44,153 nucleotides of DNA, taken from a virus. The position numbers were made by a program, and so were the translations under genes. Below the pieces are notes generated by a model. That model had not been told where the DNA came from. It did not search any database and saw only the letters and a program-made list of their open reading frames with translations. Of the stretch, positions 20,582-44,153 are shown in pieces (position 1 is the stretch's first letter; the number at the start of each line of letters is the position of its first letter). Location of the stretch: IMG/VR virus record IMGVR_UViG_3300037245_002484, positions 1 through 44,153 of that record; one strand, written 5' to 3'.

Positions 20582-21042
20582 TGGGAAGATACGCGGCGAA
20601 TACAACAGTGGGCGTAAATAAGTCAAAGGCGGAGATCGAGCGGACTTTGACCCGGTACGGAGCAACAGAATTTGCATACATGACCGGCCAGGATAAAGCA
20701 ATGGTCGGTTTTCTGATTGATAGACACAAGATTCAAATAACCATAGGATTGCCGCCCAAAGAAGATTTTGAGTTTACTAATAATGGCCGCAAAAGAATAG
20801 GCTCAGCTATTTTGGCTGAATGGGAAAAAGCCTGCCGTCAAAGGTGGCGCGCGTTAGCCCTTGTTATCAAAGCAAAACTTGAAGCAGTCGAGTGCGGGAT
20901 AACTTCAATGCAGGATGAGTTTTTGGCCTTCACCGTTCTACCATCGGGCCAGACAATCGGCGAGGTAGTAAGTCCAAGGATTGAGAATATTTTGAAAACG
21001 GGCAAAATCCTTTCGTTGTTACCTGAGGGCAAAAAAGACTAA
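20581..21042 (+). CDS. Conserved phage protein next to the recombination genes
   Basis: The 153-aa product starts MGRYAANTTVGVNKSKAEIE and has RQRWRALALVIKAKLEAVECGI in the middle, both typical of a widespread phage family of unknown function that lies close to single-strand annealing genes. The ATG at 20581 overlaps the preceding stop. The frame is open 31 codons further upstream but that part overlaps the 55-aa gene. A role linked to DNA recombination is inferred from context only. Confidence 0.7.
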   Translation: MGRYAANTTVGVNKSKAEIERTLTRYGATEFAYMTGQDKAMVGFLIDRHKIQITIGLPPKEDFEFTNNGRKRIGSAILAEWEKACRQRWRALALVIKAKLEAVECGITSMQDEFLAFTVLPSGQTIGEVVSPRIENILKTGKILSLLPEGKKD

Positions 21043-21284
21043 TGGAGGAATTCACTTGTCTAAACTGCGGGAAGATATTTCAAGGCGAGAAAGTGCCTTA
21101 TCATACAAGGGGTGAATTGGTCATGCTGAATCCTCCGTGTCCTGATTGCAAATTACTCTGCTCGGTAGAGGGCCACTTCGAGGCGCCCACGGAACCGGCA
21201 ATGAGCCGCAAAGACAATCAGCGAGCAATTAACGCTCACAACGATCTTAACAGAGATGAGTTTGGGGATATTATTTATGACTGA
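21042..21284 (+). CDS. 80-aa zinc-finger-like protein
   Basis: CLNCGK at residues 5-10 and PPCPDCKLLC at about residues 31-40 could bind one zinc ion. The rest is polar and acidic. Its ATG overlaps the previous stop (TAATGG). Just downstream is the tRNA-like gene. No function is known. Confidence 0.6.
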   Translation: MEEFTCLNCGKIFQGEKVPYHTRGELVMLNPPCPDCKLLCSVEGHFEAPTEPAMSRKDNQRAINAHNDLNRDEFGDIIYD

Positions 21285-21290
21285 GAACAA

Positions 21291-21378
21291 TGGCGGGTAA
21301 GCTCAGTGGTAGAGCTTGAGCGAGCTACGTGAAAGCGTCGAGCGCATCAGGTCGCAGGTTCGAACCCTGCCCCGCCTA
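21291..21378 (+). tRNA. tRNA-like gene with an expanded anticodon arm
   Basis: The acceptor (GGCGGG with CCCGCC), D arm (AGCT-CAGTGGTAG-AGCT) and T arm (GCAGG-TTCGAAC-CCTGC) are all clear, and the variable segment AGGTC is normal. Between D and T arms, however, there are about 13 bases too many. A GAGCG/CGC-A-TC stem can close a 20-base loop, or an inner stem CGAGCT/AGC-G-TCG can show a 7-base loop with anticodon GTG (His). The first acceptor pair is a T-T mismatch and CCA is not encoded. Isotype is undecided; it may be a pseudo-tRNA. Confidence 0.55.
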
Positions 21379-21487
21379 TTTGAAATAGAACAGGTACCGG
21401 TTGGCCTTACCGAACGGAGCCGAGGAATGAAGGTTATTAAAAGCGAACGGTTTGCTTAGGCCAGCCATATATTAAGAGAAGGAAATT

Positions 21488-21838
21488 ATGCAATCACTCA
21501 ATCAGATAAAAGCTAATTTGCTCAGCAGAGAGGCCGAAGTACAAATTGGAGAAGATGGCCTGGCTGGCAAATACGCTTGGCGTGATGAAACTTTCGTCTT
21601 TATTTTTTCCTGGGGCATGGATTGGGAGCATCTGTCTGTTTCTACAAAAAGAAGATGTCCAACATGGGAAGAAATGAGATATTTCAAAGACATATTCTGG
21701 AAGCCGGAAGAATGCTGCGTCCAGTATTTTCCCCGGAAGTCTCAATATGTAAACAATCATCCGAACTGTTTGCATATCTGGCGTCCACTTAATGAAAACG
21801 TACCCGAACCGCCGACAATTTTGATAGGAGTTACTTGA
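21488..21838 (+). CDS. Conserved phage protein (DUF7694-like)
   Basis: The 116-aa protein has the sequence pattern HLSVS, RRCPTWEEMRYFKDIFW, then CCVQYFPRKSQYVNNHP and LHIWRP, which is well conserved among phages and matches my memory of the DUF7694 family. No function has been shown. Its TGA overlaps the next ATG (TTGATG). Confidence 0.7.
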   Translation: MQSLNQIKANLLSREAEVQIGEDGLAGKYAWRDETFVFIFSWGMDWEHLSVSTKRRCPTWEEMRYFKDIFWKPEECCVQYFPRKSQYVNNHPNCLHIWRPLNENVPEPPTILIGVT

Positions 21839-22122
21839 TGGCAGTACCACAAGGGATAAAAAATTCTTTGGATAGATATGTAAAAGAAGGCACACCAACG
21901 GGCGGTTTTTTGTACGCTGTTTTGTCCAATGATTTGTTCGAGGCTTTTGGTAGAGCAGATATTGATAATCGCATGAGTCTATTTGATATTTGCAGTTATA
22001 TTTATGGCGAATTACCTTCAACGTGCCACGGCAGTCGGGAAATAGTCAATGAATGGATTGATAAATTTACGAAAAAGGAAACAGAAAATGGCGAAGTACA
22101 GAAAAAAACCGATGGTGGTTGA
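21838..22122 (+). CDS. 94-aa conserved phage protein
   Basis: The product begins MAVPQGIKNSLDRYVKEG, then has GFLYAVLSNDLFEAFGRAD and PSTCHGS, a pattern shared with small proteins in many phage early regions. Function is not known. It is coupled to the preceding gene by start-stop overlap and overlaps the following gene by 35 bases. Confidence 0.65.
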   Translation: MAVPQGIKNSLDRYVKEGTPTGGFLYAVLSNDLFEAFGRADIDNRMSLFDICSYIYGELPSTCHGSREIVNEWIDKFTKKETENGEVQKKTDGG

Positions 22123-22345
22123 TGCTTGGCAATTCAGAGATAATAAATCCTGCTTTGATGCAATGAAGGGTATGGATATACCCATAAAGTACGACTACCA
22201 ACATTCTCCTCGTTGCTATATAGAAACACTTGAAGGACGAATGTTTGTATCAGACAGAGATTGGGTAATCAAAGGCGTTGCGGGCGAATTTTATCCCTGC
22301 AAGCCCGACATCTTCAAACAGACCTACGAGAAAGTTGAGGAGTAA
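22088..22345 (+). CDS. 85-aa conserved phage protein
   Basis: The start at 22088 (MAKYRKKPMVVDAWQF) is chosen because the family begins with KYRKKPVVVEAWQ and AAGGAAA lies upstream. The C-terminal part has ETLEGRMFVSDRDWVIKG and EFYPCKPDIF, also family hallmarks. It is common in phage early regions, with no known function. Confidence 0.75.
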   Translation: MAKYRKKPMVVDAWQFRDNKSCFDAMKGMDIPIKYDYQHSPRCYIETLEGRMFVSDRDWVIKGVAGEFYPCKPDIFKQTYEKVEE

Positions 22346-22346
22346 A

Positions 22347-23195
22347 ATGCCAACACAGATTAAGCCCGGAATCTACTTAGACGTTCTCTTTTCTGATTAC
22401 CAAGAGTGGGATGCAATCAACAATAGCGCCTTGAAAATCTTAACAGACCCTACGAAGTGCCCGGCGCACTGTAAACATTATCTATTGGAAGGCAGAAAGG
22501 ACACACCGGCTCTTATATTTGGCAGAGCGGTCGATACCTATATCCTTGAGCCGCTACGGTTCTTTGAAATATATTCGGTTATGCCTGATGCTGATGGACG
22601 AACAAAGGCCGGCAAAGCAATCAAGGCTGAATATGAAGCAAAATTGAAGCCTGGGCAAGAAATTATCCGTGAAAGCGATTATGCAAAGATACAAGAAATA
22701 TACTCGTTTGTATCAGAATCAAGGGCTATTCGATTGATTCGGGATGGCAAATCTCAAGTTTGCCTTGTCTGGGAAGATAAAACAACCGGCTTGCTATGCA
22801 AGGCCCGGCTGGATTATCTCAACGTGGATATTCCGATGATAACAGATTTGAAAAGCGCAGCCGATTGCAGTCCGTTTGGTTTTGGCTGGGCGATATATCG
22901 GTTTATGTATTATCAGCAACTTGGTTTTTACGCGATGGGATACAAAGTATTGACCGGCGATGAGCCTAATATGGCGATATTCGCTATCGAAAAAGAAAAG
23001 CCTTATGTTCACGCCTCTTATGAACTCGGAGACAAGACTATTGAGACCGGGAAGAAAGCGGCCCGTAAAGCCCTGACCATATACAAAGAATGTATCGAGA
23101 GCGGGCAATGGCCTATGCACTCAGACGAAATAGAAATACTTGAAATGCCTTTACCTGCTTTGGAAAAGGCTGGGTACAGCCCTTATGAACTTTAA
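22347..23195 (+). CDS. RecE-like exonuclease (PD-(D/E)XK)
   Basis: The 282-aa protein resembles the C-terminal nuclease of exonuclease VIII: it resects double-stranded ends so that RecT can load. Catalytic candidates are D156 (ARLDY), D167 and K169 (TDLKSA) and Q190 (YYQQLGFY). The usual GxxxH motif reads FGRAVD (58-63), with Asp for His. The ATG at 22347 has GAGGAG upstream; a longer frame overlaps the previous gene. It is followed by the RecT-like gene, completing the typical pair. Confidence 0.85.
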   Translation: MPTQIKPGIYLDVLFSDYQEWDAINNSALKILTDPTKCPAHCKHYLLEGRKDTPALIFGRAVDTYILEPLRFFEIYSVMPDADGRTKAGKAIKAEYEAKLKPGQEIIRESDYAKIQEIYSFVSESRAIRLIRDGKSQVCLVWEDKTTGLLCKARLDYLNVDIPMITDLKSAADCSPFGFGWAIYRFMYYQQLGFYAMGYKVLTGDEPNMAIFAIEKEKPYVHASYELGDKTIETGKKAARKALTIYKECIESGQWPMHSDEIEILEMPLPALEKAGYSPYEL

Positions 23196-23210
23196 GAAAG
23201 GCCGGAGAGA

Positions 23211-23612
23211 ATGGCACGAATTATGAATTTAGAAATGTCGGTATTGGATATTGCGGTAGATTTAGCAGAGGGCAATCCGGGCGCCGCTACTGTTTGCGGG
23301 GAGATGCTTCTTAAGACCCCTCAGATTGACCCCGATTCAGCACTGGGAGGCTTAGGGGCATTACTCTCACTGGATACACTCGAAATATACGGCTCACGAA
23401 TCTGGGGGCTTTACAAAGACGTTTGCGGGCAAAATTTAGTTAAGATGGAAGGTGTCCTGCGGGCAAACCAGTTGGGCTTTATTGGCGGCCATGCTATCAA
23501 TCACGCAATAGATAATCGCGGAGAAGGAATTAACCCAGATAAATTGTTGGCGGAAGTCAAAGAGCACCTGCCTCGATTTGGAGCAGCCGCCGTAAAGGAA
23601 GAAACCAATTAA
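23211..23612 (+). CDS. 133-aa conserved phage protein
   Basis: The product has EGNPGAATVCGEML (residues 21-34), then LDTLEIYGSRIWGLYKDVC and VLRANQLGFI, a pattern found in many phage proteins of unknown function, usually in early or recombination regions. GGAG lies before the ATG. It sits between the RecE-like and RecT-like genes, so co-expression with them is certain. Confidence 0.7.
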   Translation: MARIMNLEMSVLDIAVDLAEGNPGAATVCGEMLLKTPQIDPDSALGGLGALLSLDTLEIYGSRIWGLYKDVCGQNLVKMEGVLRANQLGFIGGHAINHAIDNRGEGINPDKLLAEVKEHLPRFGAAAVKEETN

Positions 23613-23646
23613 CCATCTGCAATAATAACTTTAAGAAAGGATAATT

Positions 23647-24564
23647 ATGCCCCCAGAAGAAACTCAAATTCAAAAAAGAGGCCCAGATAAACTCGTTTCG
23701 GTTGACGATGGTTCGTTTTCCGCACTCATGGACACAGCCCGATTCGAGCATTTATGGCGCGTTTCCAATTTATTTGCAAAGAGCGATTTAGTTCCGCAAC
23801 ACTACAAGGGAAAGCCGGAAAACTGTATGCTGACCTGCCAGATGGCAATGAGGCTGAGCTTGGAACCACTGATGCTCATGCAGAATACTTACATAGTACA
23901 CGGCAGGCCGGGGATGGAAGGCAAGCTGGTGATTGCGTTGGTGAATACCCGCGGCCCCTTTACCGGCCCTATCGAGTGGGAATTTGACGATGAAGAAAAC
24001 CCAAAAAAATGCACCGCCTTTGCTACCCATAAAATAACAAATAAGGTTTGCAAGGCGACTATTACATGGAAAATGGTTGAAGCGGAAGGATGGAACAAAA
24101 AAGAAGGTTCGAAGTGGCTCACTATCCCCGCACAAATGTTCCGGTACAGATCGGCGGTATTTTTAGCAAGGGCTTATTGCCCGGAAGTTACGTTCGGATT
24201 TCCTACTGTCCAGGAGTTGCGGGATGTCGGTGAGCCTGAGCGAAAAAGACCGGTTTCGCCGCTGGAAGAAAAACTCGGAACTAAGCAGGTGGAGTCAAAG
24301 GTTGTCGATGAGCCGGTTGTTGAGGATTCAGCGGAACCCGAAAAGCCCGACAAGAAAAAGAAGGTTGGTAGTAAACGCAAACCTAAAAAGAAACCCGAGC
24401 CGGCAAAAGAGGAAGAACAGCAAGAAGTCCGCTTTTTCTGCCCGGATTGCGACCACGAGTTCGCCGAAGCAAAAGAATTGAAAGGGTTGTTCCAATGCGG
24501 TAAATGCCTGAATTGGAATGTGGTAGATCGGTATAGTAAAGAAGAACCAACGGAGCAAGAATAA
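23647..24564 (+). CDS. RecT-like single-strand annealing protein with zinc-ribbon tail
   Basis: Residues 25-195 match the RecT family: CMLTCQMAMRLSLEPLMLMQNTYIVHGRPG (60-89), a central beta part, and the IPAQMFRYRSAVFLARAYCPE helix (160-180). These proteins coat and anneal single strands during recombination. After it comes a highly charged Lys/Pro/Glu linker (200-258) and a C-terminal zinc ribbon with Cys at 265, 268, 284 and 287. The ribbon is not part of the usual family and may bind DNA or a partner protein. Confidence 0.85.
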   Translation: MPPEETQIQKRGPDKLVSVDDGSFSALMDTARFEHLWRVSNLFAKSDLVPQHYKGKPENCMLTCQMAMRLSLEPLMLMQNTYIVHGRPGMEGKLVIALVNTRGPFTGPIEWEFDDEENPKKCTAFATHKITNKVCKATITWKMVEAEGWNKKEGSKWLTIPAQMFRYRSAVFLARAYCPEVTFGFPTVQELRDVGEPERKRPVSPLEEKLGTKQVESKVVDEPVVEDSAEPEKPDKKKKVGSKRKPKKKPEPAKEEEQQEVRFFCPDCDHEFAEAKELKGLFQCGKCLNWNVVDRYSKEEPTEQE

Positions 24565-24565
24565 T

Positions 24566-25090
24566 ATGGAAGATTTTGAGTTTGCGAATCAGGGCAAAGC
24601 CGCCGAACCCGAAGCTAACCCACTCAAATTTTTCGTGCCAGGCATACCGGCGCCCGGTGGAAGTAAAAGAGCGTTTTACATTAAAGAGCTAAAGCGAGCA
24701 ATAGTTGCCCCGGCAAGCAAAAAGACAAAGCCTTGGATGCAGGCGGTTGCAGGTTGTGTGCGAGCGGAATACGATGGAGAGGTATTACAAGGCCCGCTTA
24801 GTGTAGAATTTCAATTTCGTTTCTTACGGCCTAAAAGTCATTATAGAACAGGCCAATATGCAGGTTATGTAAAAAATTCGGCCCCGCTTTATCCAACGGG
24901 CAGGCCGGATAGAACTAAAGTTATGCGGTCAACCGAGGATGCACTTACAGGGATACTTTGGAAAGATGATTCTCAAATTGTGGCTGGCGATGCTACTAAA
25001 ATATATGTGGAAAGAGATCCCGGTGTCGTAATTACGGTTTTTGTGAACCCTCTAATACACGAAGAAACTTTTAACAAAGGAGATTTTTAA
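24566..25090 (+). CDS. RusA-type Holliday junction resolvase
   Basis: The 174-aa protein cuts four-way junctions. The core reads GRPDRTKVMRSTEDAL, then KDDSQIV. D115, D125, D134 and D135 are present, but the second Asp of the family's PDxD motif is Thr117, which may change metal binding. An extra N-terminal segment of about 20 residues precedes the first strand. It overlaps the next gene by one base. It follows the RecT-like gene, as in many phage recombination blocks. Confidence 0.8.
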   Translation: MEDFEFANQGKAAEPEANPLKFFVPGIPAPGGSKRAFYIKELKRAIVAPASKKTKPWMQAVAGCVRAEYDGEVLQGPLSVEFQFRFLRPKSHYRTGQYAGYVKNSAPLYPTGRPDRTKVMRSTEDALTGILWKDDSQIVAGDATKIYVERDPGVVITVFVNPLIHEETFNKGDF

Positions 25091-25410
25091 TGGCAAAAGC
25101 AAAGAAGAAAACAGCGCCGAAGAAAGAATCAAAGGAAAAGGGCAAGCAACTTGATTTGATTGATGTTGCGCCTGAAAACTCCAAAGCCCTTATAGCGGCG
25201 GGGAGACGCTATAGAGACGCTTTGGCTTCTCGCCTGAAATTTGGGGCTGAGGAAAAGAAATTCAAACAGGAGATTCTTAACCTTATAGTAGCCGCAAAAC
25301 TAAAACCGCTTAAAGACGGCGTAATTAAGTTCGAGCTTGATGGTTTAGACTTCGCCATTACGCCACGAGACATGTTGGTCCAGGTCAAAGAAAAGACAGA
25401 ATCGGAATAA
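25090..25410 (+). CDS. 106-aa conserved phage protein
   Basis: The N-terminus is a Lys-rich tail (residues 2-20), followed by a helical region (SKALIAAGRRYRDAL, then EKKFKQEILNLIVAAKLK) and a short beta part (GVIKFELDGLDFAITPRD). Such proteins follow resolvase genes in several phages; function unknown. It is the last gene before the strong terminator at 25428-25470. Confidence 0.6.
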   Translation: MAKAKKKTAPKKESKEKGKQLDLIDVAPENSKALIAAGRRYRDALASRLKFGAEEKKFKQEILNLIVAAKLKPLKDGVIKFELDGLDFAITPRDMLVQVKEKTESE

Positions 25411-25427
25411 CTTTCTCCCTCTCAATG

Positions 25428-25470
25428 AGTCGCCTCCGTCGTACCTCCATTCGGCGGGGGCGGCTATTTT
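25428..25470 (+). terminator. Rho-independent terminator of the early unit
   Basis: Bases 25428-25441 and 25452-25465 form a 14-bp stem (with three G-T pairs, otherwise Watson-Crick) around a 10-base loop and are followed by ATTTT. It lies 17 bases after the last recombination gene and before the tRNA-fMet. Confidence 0.8.
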
Positions 25471-25565
25471 ACAAGTGAATAGTCGCGGGGTAAACTAATG
25501 GCAGGTTACTGGGCTCATAACCCAGGTAGTGTCGGTTCGAATCCGGCTCCCGCTATTTTACAAGT
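25463..25565. repeat. 14-bp direct repeat GCTATTTTACAAGT flanking the tRNA-fMet
   Basis: Exact copies lie at 25463-25476 (end of the terminator) and 25552-25565 (3' end of the tRNA and beyond), 89 bases apart. The tRNA lies on the 89-bp unit. This looks like the scar of an insertion, or of a deletion between two tRNA genes with similar ends. Confidence 0.7.
25484..25555 (+). tRNA. Initiator tRNA-fMet (CAT anticodon)
   Basis: The 72-base gene folds canonically, with anticodon loop CTCATAA. It has the marks of bacterial initiator tRNA: no Watson-Crick pair at 1-72 (C against T), three G-C pairs at the base of the anticodon stem (GGG/CCC), and an A11-T24 pair in the D stem. Its acceptor start, CGCGGGG, equals that of E. 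coli tRNA-fMet as I recall it. CCA is not encoded. It could support fast initiation of late phage translation. Confidence 0.85.
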
Positions 25566-25686
25566 TTCCTTGGATTTACCGTGTCAAGCGTATCACGGAT
25601 GATATAATGTTGGGTGGCTGTGTATGCCTTGTAGATGTTACCGTCGCCCAACACGCAATTTTCTCCCCTCCGAAAGTCGGGCGTTG

Positions 25687-25715
25687 TTGCAAAACTTCGC
25701 CTGGCTTTTTATAAT
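25687..25715 (+). promoter_or_regulatory. Promoter of the papain-like gene pair
   Basis: TTGCAA (25687-25692), a 17-base spacer and TATAAT (25710-25715) precede the gene at 25738. The expected start point lies just upstream of its GGAG. It would give these two genes transcription independent of the terminated early unit. Confidence 0.65.
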
Positions 25716-25737
25716 GAAAGTTGATAGGAGTATTGCC

Positions 25738-26214
25738 ATGGAATTTGAACTGTTATTTAGAAAAATCGAAAGCACGAAGAATCCTATTTCTCACATAATC
25801 GGCTGGTGGACCAAAAGCAAATATTGCCATGTAGCAGGCAGGTTCGTTTTTAGGAACCGTGGGGTGAAGAAAACTTTAAGTTTTCATTCCACAGCGAAAG
25901 GATTTGTCTCTGAGCTAATATCGGGCGATCCTAAGAAGTGGGATATAGTCCGTGTGAAACTCGAACCCTATCATGTTGAACGGCTTTTCTTGTTATGCGA
26001 GTTGGATGATGGCCGGATTGAATATGACTTTGCGGGCATACTTACCTGGCCTACTTTCGGTCTTATCAAACAGGACCCGCGCAAAGATTACTGCTCCGAG
26101 ACATTCAGGAGAAAGCTGGGCTTTAGATGGATTGGCGGTTTGCCGCGGTGGGATGGCAAAAAGTGTTCGCCTCAGGATTTGTATGATCTGGTAGCTATGA
26201 AGGAGAATGAATAA
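25738..26214 (+). CDS. Permuted papain-like (YiiX/NlpC-P60 superfamily) putative peptidase or amidase
   Basis: The 158-aa protein has ISHIIGWWTKSKYCHVAGRF (residues 17-36) with candidate His31, and DYCSETF (117-123) with candidate Cys119. This His-before-Cys order is the layout of circularly permuted papain-fold enzymes such as YiiX, which cleave amide or lipid bonds. No signal peptide is present. The ATG at 25738 has TAGGAG six bases upstream. A role in cell-wall or lipid hydrolysis is inferred. It overlaps the 131-aa gene by one base. Confidence 0.55.
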   Translation: MEFELLFRKIESTKNPISHIIGWWTKSKYCHVAGRFVFRNRGVKKTLSFHSTAKGFVSELISGDPKKWDIVRVKLEPYHVERLFLLCELDDGRIEYDFAGILTWPTFGLIKQDPRKDYCSETFRRKLGFRWIGGLPRWDGKKCSPQDLYDLVAMKENE

Positions 26215-26609
26215 TGGGCATGTGTAAACATAATCAGGAATTTGAAACATGCAGGTTTGGCTGCACCCTAAAGGATGCTGAGGTGTTAAGGCTTGAAAAT
26301 GATGCCCTCCACAAACTCAGTCGAAGGCTCGAAGCCGAACTCACCTCAGCAAAGGACGATGTGGCAGATTTCAATAGAGGCTGGAAGTGGGCACAAAATG
26401 GCAAGGAGTTAAGTACGCAAGAGGATAATTGTTTATTCAAGCAGGGCTGGCAAGTGTTTATGTTTGATGGATTGCAATCCAAACTCGCCGAGTTGGCTAA
26501 TTGTGTGATTATCGCCACCGATGGAGCGGAGAGTTGCGACGATATAGGTGTGTTGAGGCAATATATGATTGCCATGAGAAAAAAAGCAAACGATATAAAA
26601 AAGCCGTGA
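26214..26609 (+). CDS. 131-aa coiled-coil protein
   Basis: The N-terminus has Cys/His residues (CKHNQEFETCRFGC, residues 4-17) that could bind metal, followed by a coiled coil (LKDAEVLRLENDALHKLSRR, about 19-38) and a helical C-terminus. It is the last rightward gene and its stop lies inside the leftward terminator hairpin. No family is recognised. Confidence 0.6.
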   Translation: MGMCKHNQEFETCRFGCTLKDAEVLRLENDALHKLSRRLEAELTSAKDDVADFNRGWKWAQNGKELSTQEDNCLFKQGWQVFMFDGLQSKLAELANCVIIATDGAESCDDIGVLRQYMIAMRKKANDIKKP

Positions 26610-42667: not shown

Positions 42668-43549
42668 TTAATTTCCATATCTTGCTAAGTCCCAATCGTC
42701 TCGGCCTGATACGTTTGTTTGCTGGGCCGCTACAAGCCTTGCCCGTGTCATAACAGCCCTCAAATCCTCTTTAATGTCGGCTTTCATTGGGTTTGTTTTC
42801 GTGCCGGCAAGTGGCGGGGTGAGTTTAAGTGCCGTTCTTAGAATCAGGACTTCCGTAAATAACGGCTTGAAATCATCGGGGTCTGTAACCAGCTTGACAT
42901 ACTTGACATGAAGGGTATCGTAATTGGTCAATATTCGTTGACCTTCCATTTCCCACCTGCACTCGGGACGTTCCGTGCCATCATCTTCCCAAACGCTTTT
43001 CAGGCGAAGGAAGTCGTTAGGAAGTTGATATTGATGTGTCCATTCAAAATCAGGAGTGATCCCGGTAACAGTAGGAAAGCCGGTACCGCAGACGGTTTGG
43101 TCGTCTGAATCATCGTACCAAACAACTTCATCCTCTCCATAAACTACTTCGACACCTTCCCACGTTACGGCAAAGATAGTGGCGTTGGTGATTGTCTCCC
43201 CGTCTGTGAAGTCTCCTGAAATATGAATTATCTCATATTCCGTTCCCGAAGTTACAGTCAGGATTTCGGCGGTTGTGCCCGAGGATATTCCGGTGATTGT
43301 ATCCCCGACAACCCAATTATCCGGCCCAGGCTCGGCGTCTAATAATATTGTGCTTATCTTGCCGAGTTCTTCCCGGTCGGTGGCAAACGGCCATTCATAA
43401 GATTCGAGCAAAGAATTGCGGGTCTGTTCGTAATGGCGGATAGCTGTAAGAGCCGGAAGTGTCGTCTGATCTGCGAAGGCTATCTGGCCTAAGCTAACTC
43501 TATCGTTCGCCTGGTTTACGATGACTAATTCGGCTTCTGTCAGACTCAT
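42668..43549 (-). CDS. Tail tubular protein A (T7 gp11-like) with inserted domain
   Basis: The 293-aa protein should form the ring below the portal. Family features are VNQANDRVSLGQI (residues 10-22), RNSLLESYEWPFATDR (45-60), then WTHQYQLPNDFLRLKSVW (170-187), LHVKYVKLVTDPDDFKPLF and a helical C-terminus. Between residues about 65 and 165 is an extra acidic beta domain (GDTITGISSGTTAEILTVTSG, GDFTDGETITNA) not found in T7 gp11. Length is about 100 residues more than T7's. The first 37 codons recur at the left end of the contig. Confidence 0.75.
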   Translation of the reverse strand: MSLTEAELVIVNQANDRVSLGQIAFADQTTLPALTAIRHYEQTRNSLLESYEWPFATDREELGKISTILLDAEPGPDNWVVGDTITGISSGTTAEILTVTSGTEYEIIHISGDFTDGETITNATIFAVTWEGVEVVYGEDEVVWYDDSDDQTVCGTGFPTVTGITPDFEWTHQYQLPNDFLRLKSVWEDDGTERPECRWEMEGQRILTNYDTLHVKYVKLVTDPDDFKPLFTEVLILRTALKLTPPLAGTKTNPMKADIKEDLRAVMTRARLVAAQQTNVSGRDDWDLARYGN

Positions 43550-43567
43550 GGTGTACCCCGTTTAATC

Positions 43568-43957
43568 TTAAGGCAATAAGTCCTGGCAGCTTTTACCGTG
43601 TGCCTCTATCCACATTGTTCCGCTGGCGGAGCTATCTATTGCAATGGAAAGGTTGGCAGTGCATTTTATACCCATTCCACGCGGGGCTTCCCAAGACCAA
43701 TATCCGGTATTCGCATCAAGAGGTATCGGGCCAAAGTGAACGGTCGTAACATCGTCTCCTGTCTCACCTGAACCGATTTCAATGTCCATTGCGGCATCGG
43801 TGCGGATTACAAGTTTTGTTATATAATGCGAATATCCTGATTCAGCCGCCAAGATTTCTTCGCCGTTGTTTACACCTGCCGATTGCAGAGAACGATAAAA
43901 GTCCTTGCCCGCCGTTGGAATTGTTTTCATGTTATACGTATTTGCAACAATAGGCAT
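43568..43957 (-). CDS. 129-aa putative virion protein, allele 2
   Basis: This version has the same length as allele 1 but differs by about 20 residues. Changes group at residues 21-34 and 50-68; one residue is deleted in a Gly/Asp-rich loop and a Pro is added at the end. The HFGPIPLDANTGYWSW core and the C-terminal AHGKSCQDLL are the same. Variable loops on a constant core fit a surface-exposed virion protein under diversifying selection. The start has AAAGGAG upstream. Confidence 0.75.
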   Translation of the reverse strand: MPIVANTYNMKTIPTAGKDFYRSLQSAGVNNGEEILAAESGYSHYITKLVIRTDAAMDIEIGSGETGDDVTTVHFGPIPLDANTGYWSWEAPRGMGIKCTANLSIAIDSSASGTMWIEAHGKSCQDLLP

Positions 43958-43969
43958 AATTTGGCTCCT

Positions 43970-44153
43970 TTAATCAATAAGATTTCCGTTCTCATCCCGT
44001 TGCCAGAGATTTAATTTTACTTCGCCGAACGCAACGGACGTTTGAATCTTAGTAGCGCGAAGCGGTTCGCCAGAGCGGGAACAATATCCCGCCCTGGCTG
44101 CACGCTTATTCGATTCATCAATCAAATCACTTCGACTGACATTTACAGGAACA
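43970..44153 (-). CDS. 68-aa conserved late protein, truncated second copy
   Basis: The last 61 codons of the 68-aa gene are present; the start is beyond the end of the contig. Most of the differences from the complete copy at 535-741 lie in its C-terminal part. The truncation is due to the sequence edge. Confidence 0.75.
   Translation of the reverse strand, partial: VPVNVSRSDLIDESNKRAARAGYCSRSGEPLRATKIQTSVAFGEVKLNLWQRDENGNLID

Follow-up and report, generated by a model that had tools for sequence, protein, structure and literature searches.

Results

An initiator-type tRNA gene in a podovirus-like phage genome

The window, by which we mean the whole stretch of 44,153 nucleotides that was analysed, belongs to a phage with structural genes of T7/podovirus type. 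Its two ends (1-718 and 43437-44153) are 88.8% identical over approximately 720 bases, and this overlap suggests a near-complete genome of about 43.4 kb, the similarity reflecting either two variants that overlap in a circularly permuted assembly or a genuine but imperfect duplication. ORFs 133-522 and 43568-43957 occupy corresponding places in the two ends. Among the matches listed, the terminase is distant (22-24% identity) and the region 21000-26300 resembles GenBank phages over a short stretch only.

ARAGORN made a single tRNA call in the window, a tRNA-Met(cat) at 25483-25556, and Rfam model RF00005 matched 25484-25555 end to end with 52.3 bits. The E-value of this match, 1.6e-8, rules out chance, and the coordinates of the original prediction are exactly those of the Rfam match. 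If the genome is near-complete, this gene is the only canonical tRNA of the phage. The DNA of the tRNA gene had no similarity to GenBank phages at 1e-5. The features discussed below are listed in Table 1.

Table 1. Positions in the window of the tRNA gene, its surroundings and a second tRNA-like element
Feature	Position	Strand	Basis or remark
Initiator-type tRNA-fMet(CAU), no CCA encoded	25484..25555	+	ARAGORN, Rfam, identity elements by script
Upstream gene, 106 aa, no assigned function	25090..25410	+	
Strong terminator-like 14-bp hairpin, then ATTTTA	25428..25465	+	Fold z -5.1; terminator scan match 25444-25460; conserved in sister phage L003 by alignment
Left copy of 14-nt exact direct repeat GCTATTTTACAAGT flanking the tRNA	25463..25476	+	Single copy here in sister phage L003
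Right copy of 14-nt direct repeat GCTATTTTACAAGT, overlapping the tRNA 3' end	25552..25565	+	
Sigma-70-like promoter match TTGCAA-17-TATAAT before the downstream gene, near the right slot border	25687..25715	+	Conserved in sister phage
Downstream gene, no assigned function	25738..26214	+	Conserved in two sister phages
tRNA-like element	21292-21377	+	Second Rfam tRNA match, 33.6 bits
Stretch directly 3' of the tRNA-like element, potential closing stem GGTTGGCCT/AGGCCAGCC	21378-21475	+	Strongly conserved with sister phage

Identity elements were assigned with a parser script, using initiator marks, among them a purine-pyrimidine pair at 11-24, as stated in PMC8887418. Positions 1 and 72 form no Watson-Crick pair (C1xU72) and are followed by the acceptor pairs G2-C71, C3-G70 and G4-C69, with A73 as discriminator. 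The D-stem pair 11-24 is A11-U24, and the anticodon stem carries GGG/CCC (G29-C41, G30-C40, G31-C39) next to a canonical, unmutated CUCAUAA loop. The script thus recovered the missing 1-72 pair, the GGG/CCC stem and the A11-T24 pair, all of which had been claimed for this gene beforehand. Folded by itself, the tRNA had an ordinary energy when compared to shuffles (z -1.0). The gene is real and looks functional.

The CAU anticodon and the CUCAUAA loop are also those of elongator tRNA-Met and of tRNA-Ile2, either of which might have been misread as an initiator. The same script was run on the annotated E. coli genes metZ, metT/metU and ileX/ileY. The initiator metZ has all tested marks in common with the window tRNA (the 1x72 mismatch, GC/CG/GC at 2-4, A73, A11-U24, GGG/CCC and CUCAUAA), but its mismatch at 1-72 is C-A instead of C-U. 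Elongator metT/metU and Ile2-type ileX/ileY, in contrast, have G1-C72 and C11-G24 and lack GGG/CCC, and alignment identity was highest to metZ (72%, compared to 57% for metT/metU and 51% for ileX/ileY). A misread elongator or Ile2 tRNA is for these reasons extremely improbable. The window tRNA has every tested mark, and the E. coli elongator-Met and Ile2 tRNAs lack those that discriminate; the proposed bacterial-type initiator identity is supported.

Differences from cellular initiators

Compared to bacterial initiators such as metZ, the window tRNA differs in the D-arm, at 15-48 and 26-44 and in the variable loop, and it encodes no CCA. The comparison was made with 119 bacterial C1xU72 initiators, a set biased by its search pattern, which fixed much of the acceptor stem, the anticodon arm and the T-arm. 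The window tRNA agrees with this set in the anticodon loop, in GGG/CCC and, position 66 apart, in the acceptor stem. The departures are concentrated in the D-arm and the variable region, at sites that are nearly invariant in the cellular tRNAs: A10-U25 replaces a G-C found in 117/119, C12-G23 a G-C in 118/119, U13-G22 a C-G in 117/119, A15-U48 a G-C in all 119 and A26-G44 a G-A in 114/119. Since these core changes preserve pairing, the gene is not simply decaying.

Some of the same variants occur in other viral tRNAs, with A15-U48 in 21, U13-G22 in 19 and A26-G44 in 16 of 113 initiator-type tRNAs from IMG/VR. One could imagine a remodelled class of initiator tRNA common to phages, in which the marks for initiation are kept and the D-arm, 15-48 and 26-44 are rewired, so that it would serve phage initiation and escape an enzyme recognising the core of the host initiator; we consider such a class quite improbable. 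Pair 11-24 also varies among the viral initiator-type tRNAs (IMG/VR loci L061-L180), being U11-A24 in 27/113 and C11-G24 in 15/113, compared to A11-U24 in 118/119 cellular initiators.

Initiator-type tRNAs in other phages

A phage initiator tRNA had been presented as unusual, and this view did not hold. The exact 17-base anticodon arm of the window tRNA was found in at least 120 IMG/VR stretches. GGG/CCC was present in 120 of 145 CAT tRNAs parsed from IMG/VR loci, a share biased by the motif with which these loci were selected, and 90 of those 120 had a mismatch at 1-72. Only one tRNA was seen in the stored stretch at 43 of the 120 loci, the stretches being short, and one 53-kb IMG/VR contig also has a single tRNA. 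In GenBank, 294 phage records matched E. coli tRNA-fMet. Of the six examples fetched from these phages, five share GGG/CCC, the 1-72 mismatch and A11-U24 with the window tRNA, namely those of Mycobacterium phage TinyTim, Prevotella phage Lak-B1, Pseudomonas phage pf16, Acinetobacter phage MD-2021a and Bacteroides LoVEphage. They were either unannotated or annotated as plain tRNA-Met; the genomes of these phages, however, measure 71-548 kb, whereas the present one has about 43 kb and a single canonical tRNA. Phage T5 (AY543070) likewise encodes a CAU tRNA, 'tRNAfM (CAU)', annotated 'initiator tRNA fMet', but it sits in a large array of tRNAs, has an encoded CCA and, judged by its sequence, lacks GGG/CCC, so that the window tRNA is the more canonical initiator. 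A tRNA-fMet is also listed for an Erwinia jumbo phage (PMC7760394). The window tRNA is an ordinary member of the already known phage initiator tRNAs.

A variable slot between two genes

Upstream of the tRNA gene lie exonuclease VIII-like, RecT-like and RusA-like genes, with the 106-aa gene behind them. For the downstream gene an ORF is listed from 25624, and homology with a third relative (3300024262_000058) starts near 25735. The nearest sister phage, IMGVR_UViG_3300033145_000897 (L003; approximately 80% DNA identity), has kept the hairpin and the promoter-like region downstream, together with one copy of the repeat, and its slot is filled by a different, well-folding segment (z -2.9). In the third relative the slot holds a small ORF. 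Rfam found no initiator tRNA in either relative, its one match in each being a tRNA-like element (see below). As the slot is shared with other contents and both relatives lack the initiator, the window tRNA gene is accessory; its absence from the nearest sister phages makes it dispensable in that lineage. A search for further slot occupants by way of the upstream 106-aa gene confirmed no relatives.

The segment at the slot of the sister phage (L003 5866-5982, starting TGCCAGCGGCGG) is structured and had no Rfam match. Its first 26 nt recur just 3' of another relative's tRNA-like element (L194 1611-1636), and a 12-mer of it was found again in that relative's slot copy (L187 2473-2484). From these sequences, the segment possibly belongs to a mobile small RNA family.

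The flanking 14-nt repeat, single in one sister phage, and the missing tRNA in the sister phages suggest recent gain or repeated loss. They would fit a neutral passenger, that is, a tRNA cassette gained by recombination that is transcribed or not and has little effect. The many core differences that keep pairing suggest, on the other side, that a working tRNA was under selection, at least until it arrived here, and we judge a neutral passenger unlikely.

Host and attachment site

tRNA genes are frequent integration sites of temperate phages, and the tRNA could accordingly be what is left of a host tRNA-fMet gene used as an attachment site. Against this, the gene is complete, the structural module is T7-like and the record had no match to the tyrosine and serine recombinase families PF00589 and PF00239. 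A near-identical tRNA pattern gave no match in the genome collection (cellular contigs), and the closest cellular match, within a motif-selected set, was about 83%. A remnant is thus very improbable, and the whole gene, the lack of an integrase family and the lack of a near-identical cellular match speak for a phage-borne gene, as originally proposed; a host outside the sampled genomes could conceivably have an identical tRNA. Matches listed for C1xU72 within the initiator frame came from Actinobacteria, Chloroflexi, Bacteroidetes, Planctomycetota and others. Judging from these genomes, C1xU72 is a normal variant among bacterial initiators, and because it is found in many phyla, a planctomycete host is without support.

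A second tRNA-like element

The second Rfam tRNA match in the window had gone unmentioned in the original prediction. Its acceptor, D and T arms are ordinary, and its anticodon region is enlarged, without a normal anticodon loop. In the sister phage a tRNA-like element lies at the same place (L003 1239-1312), with a 6-nt loop lacking U33, reported by ARAGORN as 'tRNA-???', and the third relative has a 100-nt version placed elsewhere (L194 1501-1600). The element in the window is possibly an anticodon-less tRNA-like RNA; for comparison, the T5 record annotates a 'tRNA-like stable RNA with unknown functions'. A 21-mer from the conserved stretch 3' of the element matched, in IMG/VR, the sister contig only.

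Discussion

We attribute the locus, with a probability of roughly 0.7, to a functional phage-carried initiator tRNA gene of the bacterial type, which occupies, as an accessory element, a variable slot between genes of a podovirus-like phage of about 43.4 kb. Its expression, processing, charging, formylation and use in initiation, as well as the advantage for which it was selected (added supply, or a substitute for a damaged host pool), are what we infer from the sequence. Host RNase P and 3' nucleases would trim the transcript, and the host nucleotidyltransferase would add the CCA, which the gene does not encode. Host MetRS would charge it through the CAU anticodon, and host Met-tRNA formyltransferase would formylate it through the 1x72 mismatch and the acceptor pairs. 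The host enzymes would be needed here, since no formyltransferase or deformylase family was found in the record. GGG/CCC would then place the tRNA in the P-site, and the initiator pool would be topped up or replaced during infection. Several observations stand against a functional gene: the tRNA has no clear promoter of its own, the matches being weak, the terminator-like hairpin lies just upstream of it, the nearest sister phages do without an initiator tRNA, and its folding energy is ordinary.

It is possible that initiation is limiting in infection, or that the host initiator is attacked. In a narrower form of the functional reading, a host system (VapC-like or AtaT-like) would cut or modify the host initiator and the phage copy would escape. 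It has been hypothesised that phage tRNAs counter anticodon nucleases (PMC10264068), VapC cleaves initiator tRNA according to work cited in PMC12482277, and a D-arm and variable-loop core unlike that of bacterial initiators could affect recognition. The anticodon loop, however, is not mutated in the manner of the evasion described in PMC10264068 and so shows no trace of nuclease evasion through loop changes, and tRNA-fMet is generally avoided by phages where VapC targets tRNA-fMet (PMC10264068). An anti-defence replacement therefore appears rather unlikely.

The gene adds a clean single-tRNA case to the initiator tRNAs of phages. Such tRNAs are easily overlooked, since many carry the bare annotation 'tRNA-Met' or none. 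In a phage of about 43 kb that carries an initiator as its only canonical tRNA, codon compensation is a poor explanation, and such a phage may offer a simple system for asking why phages carry initiators.
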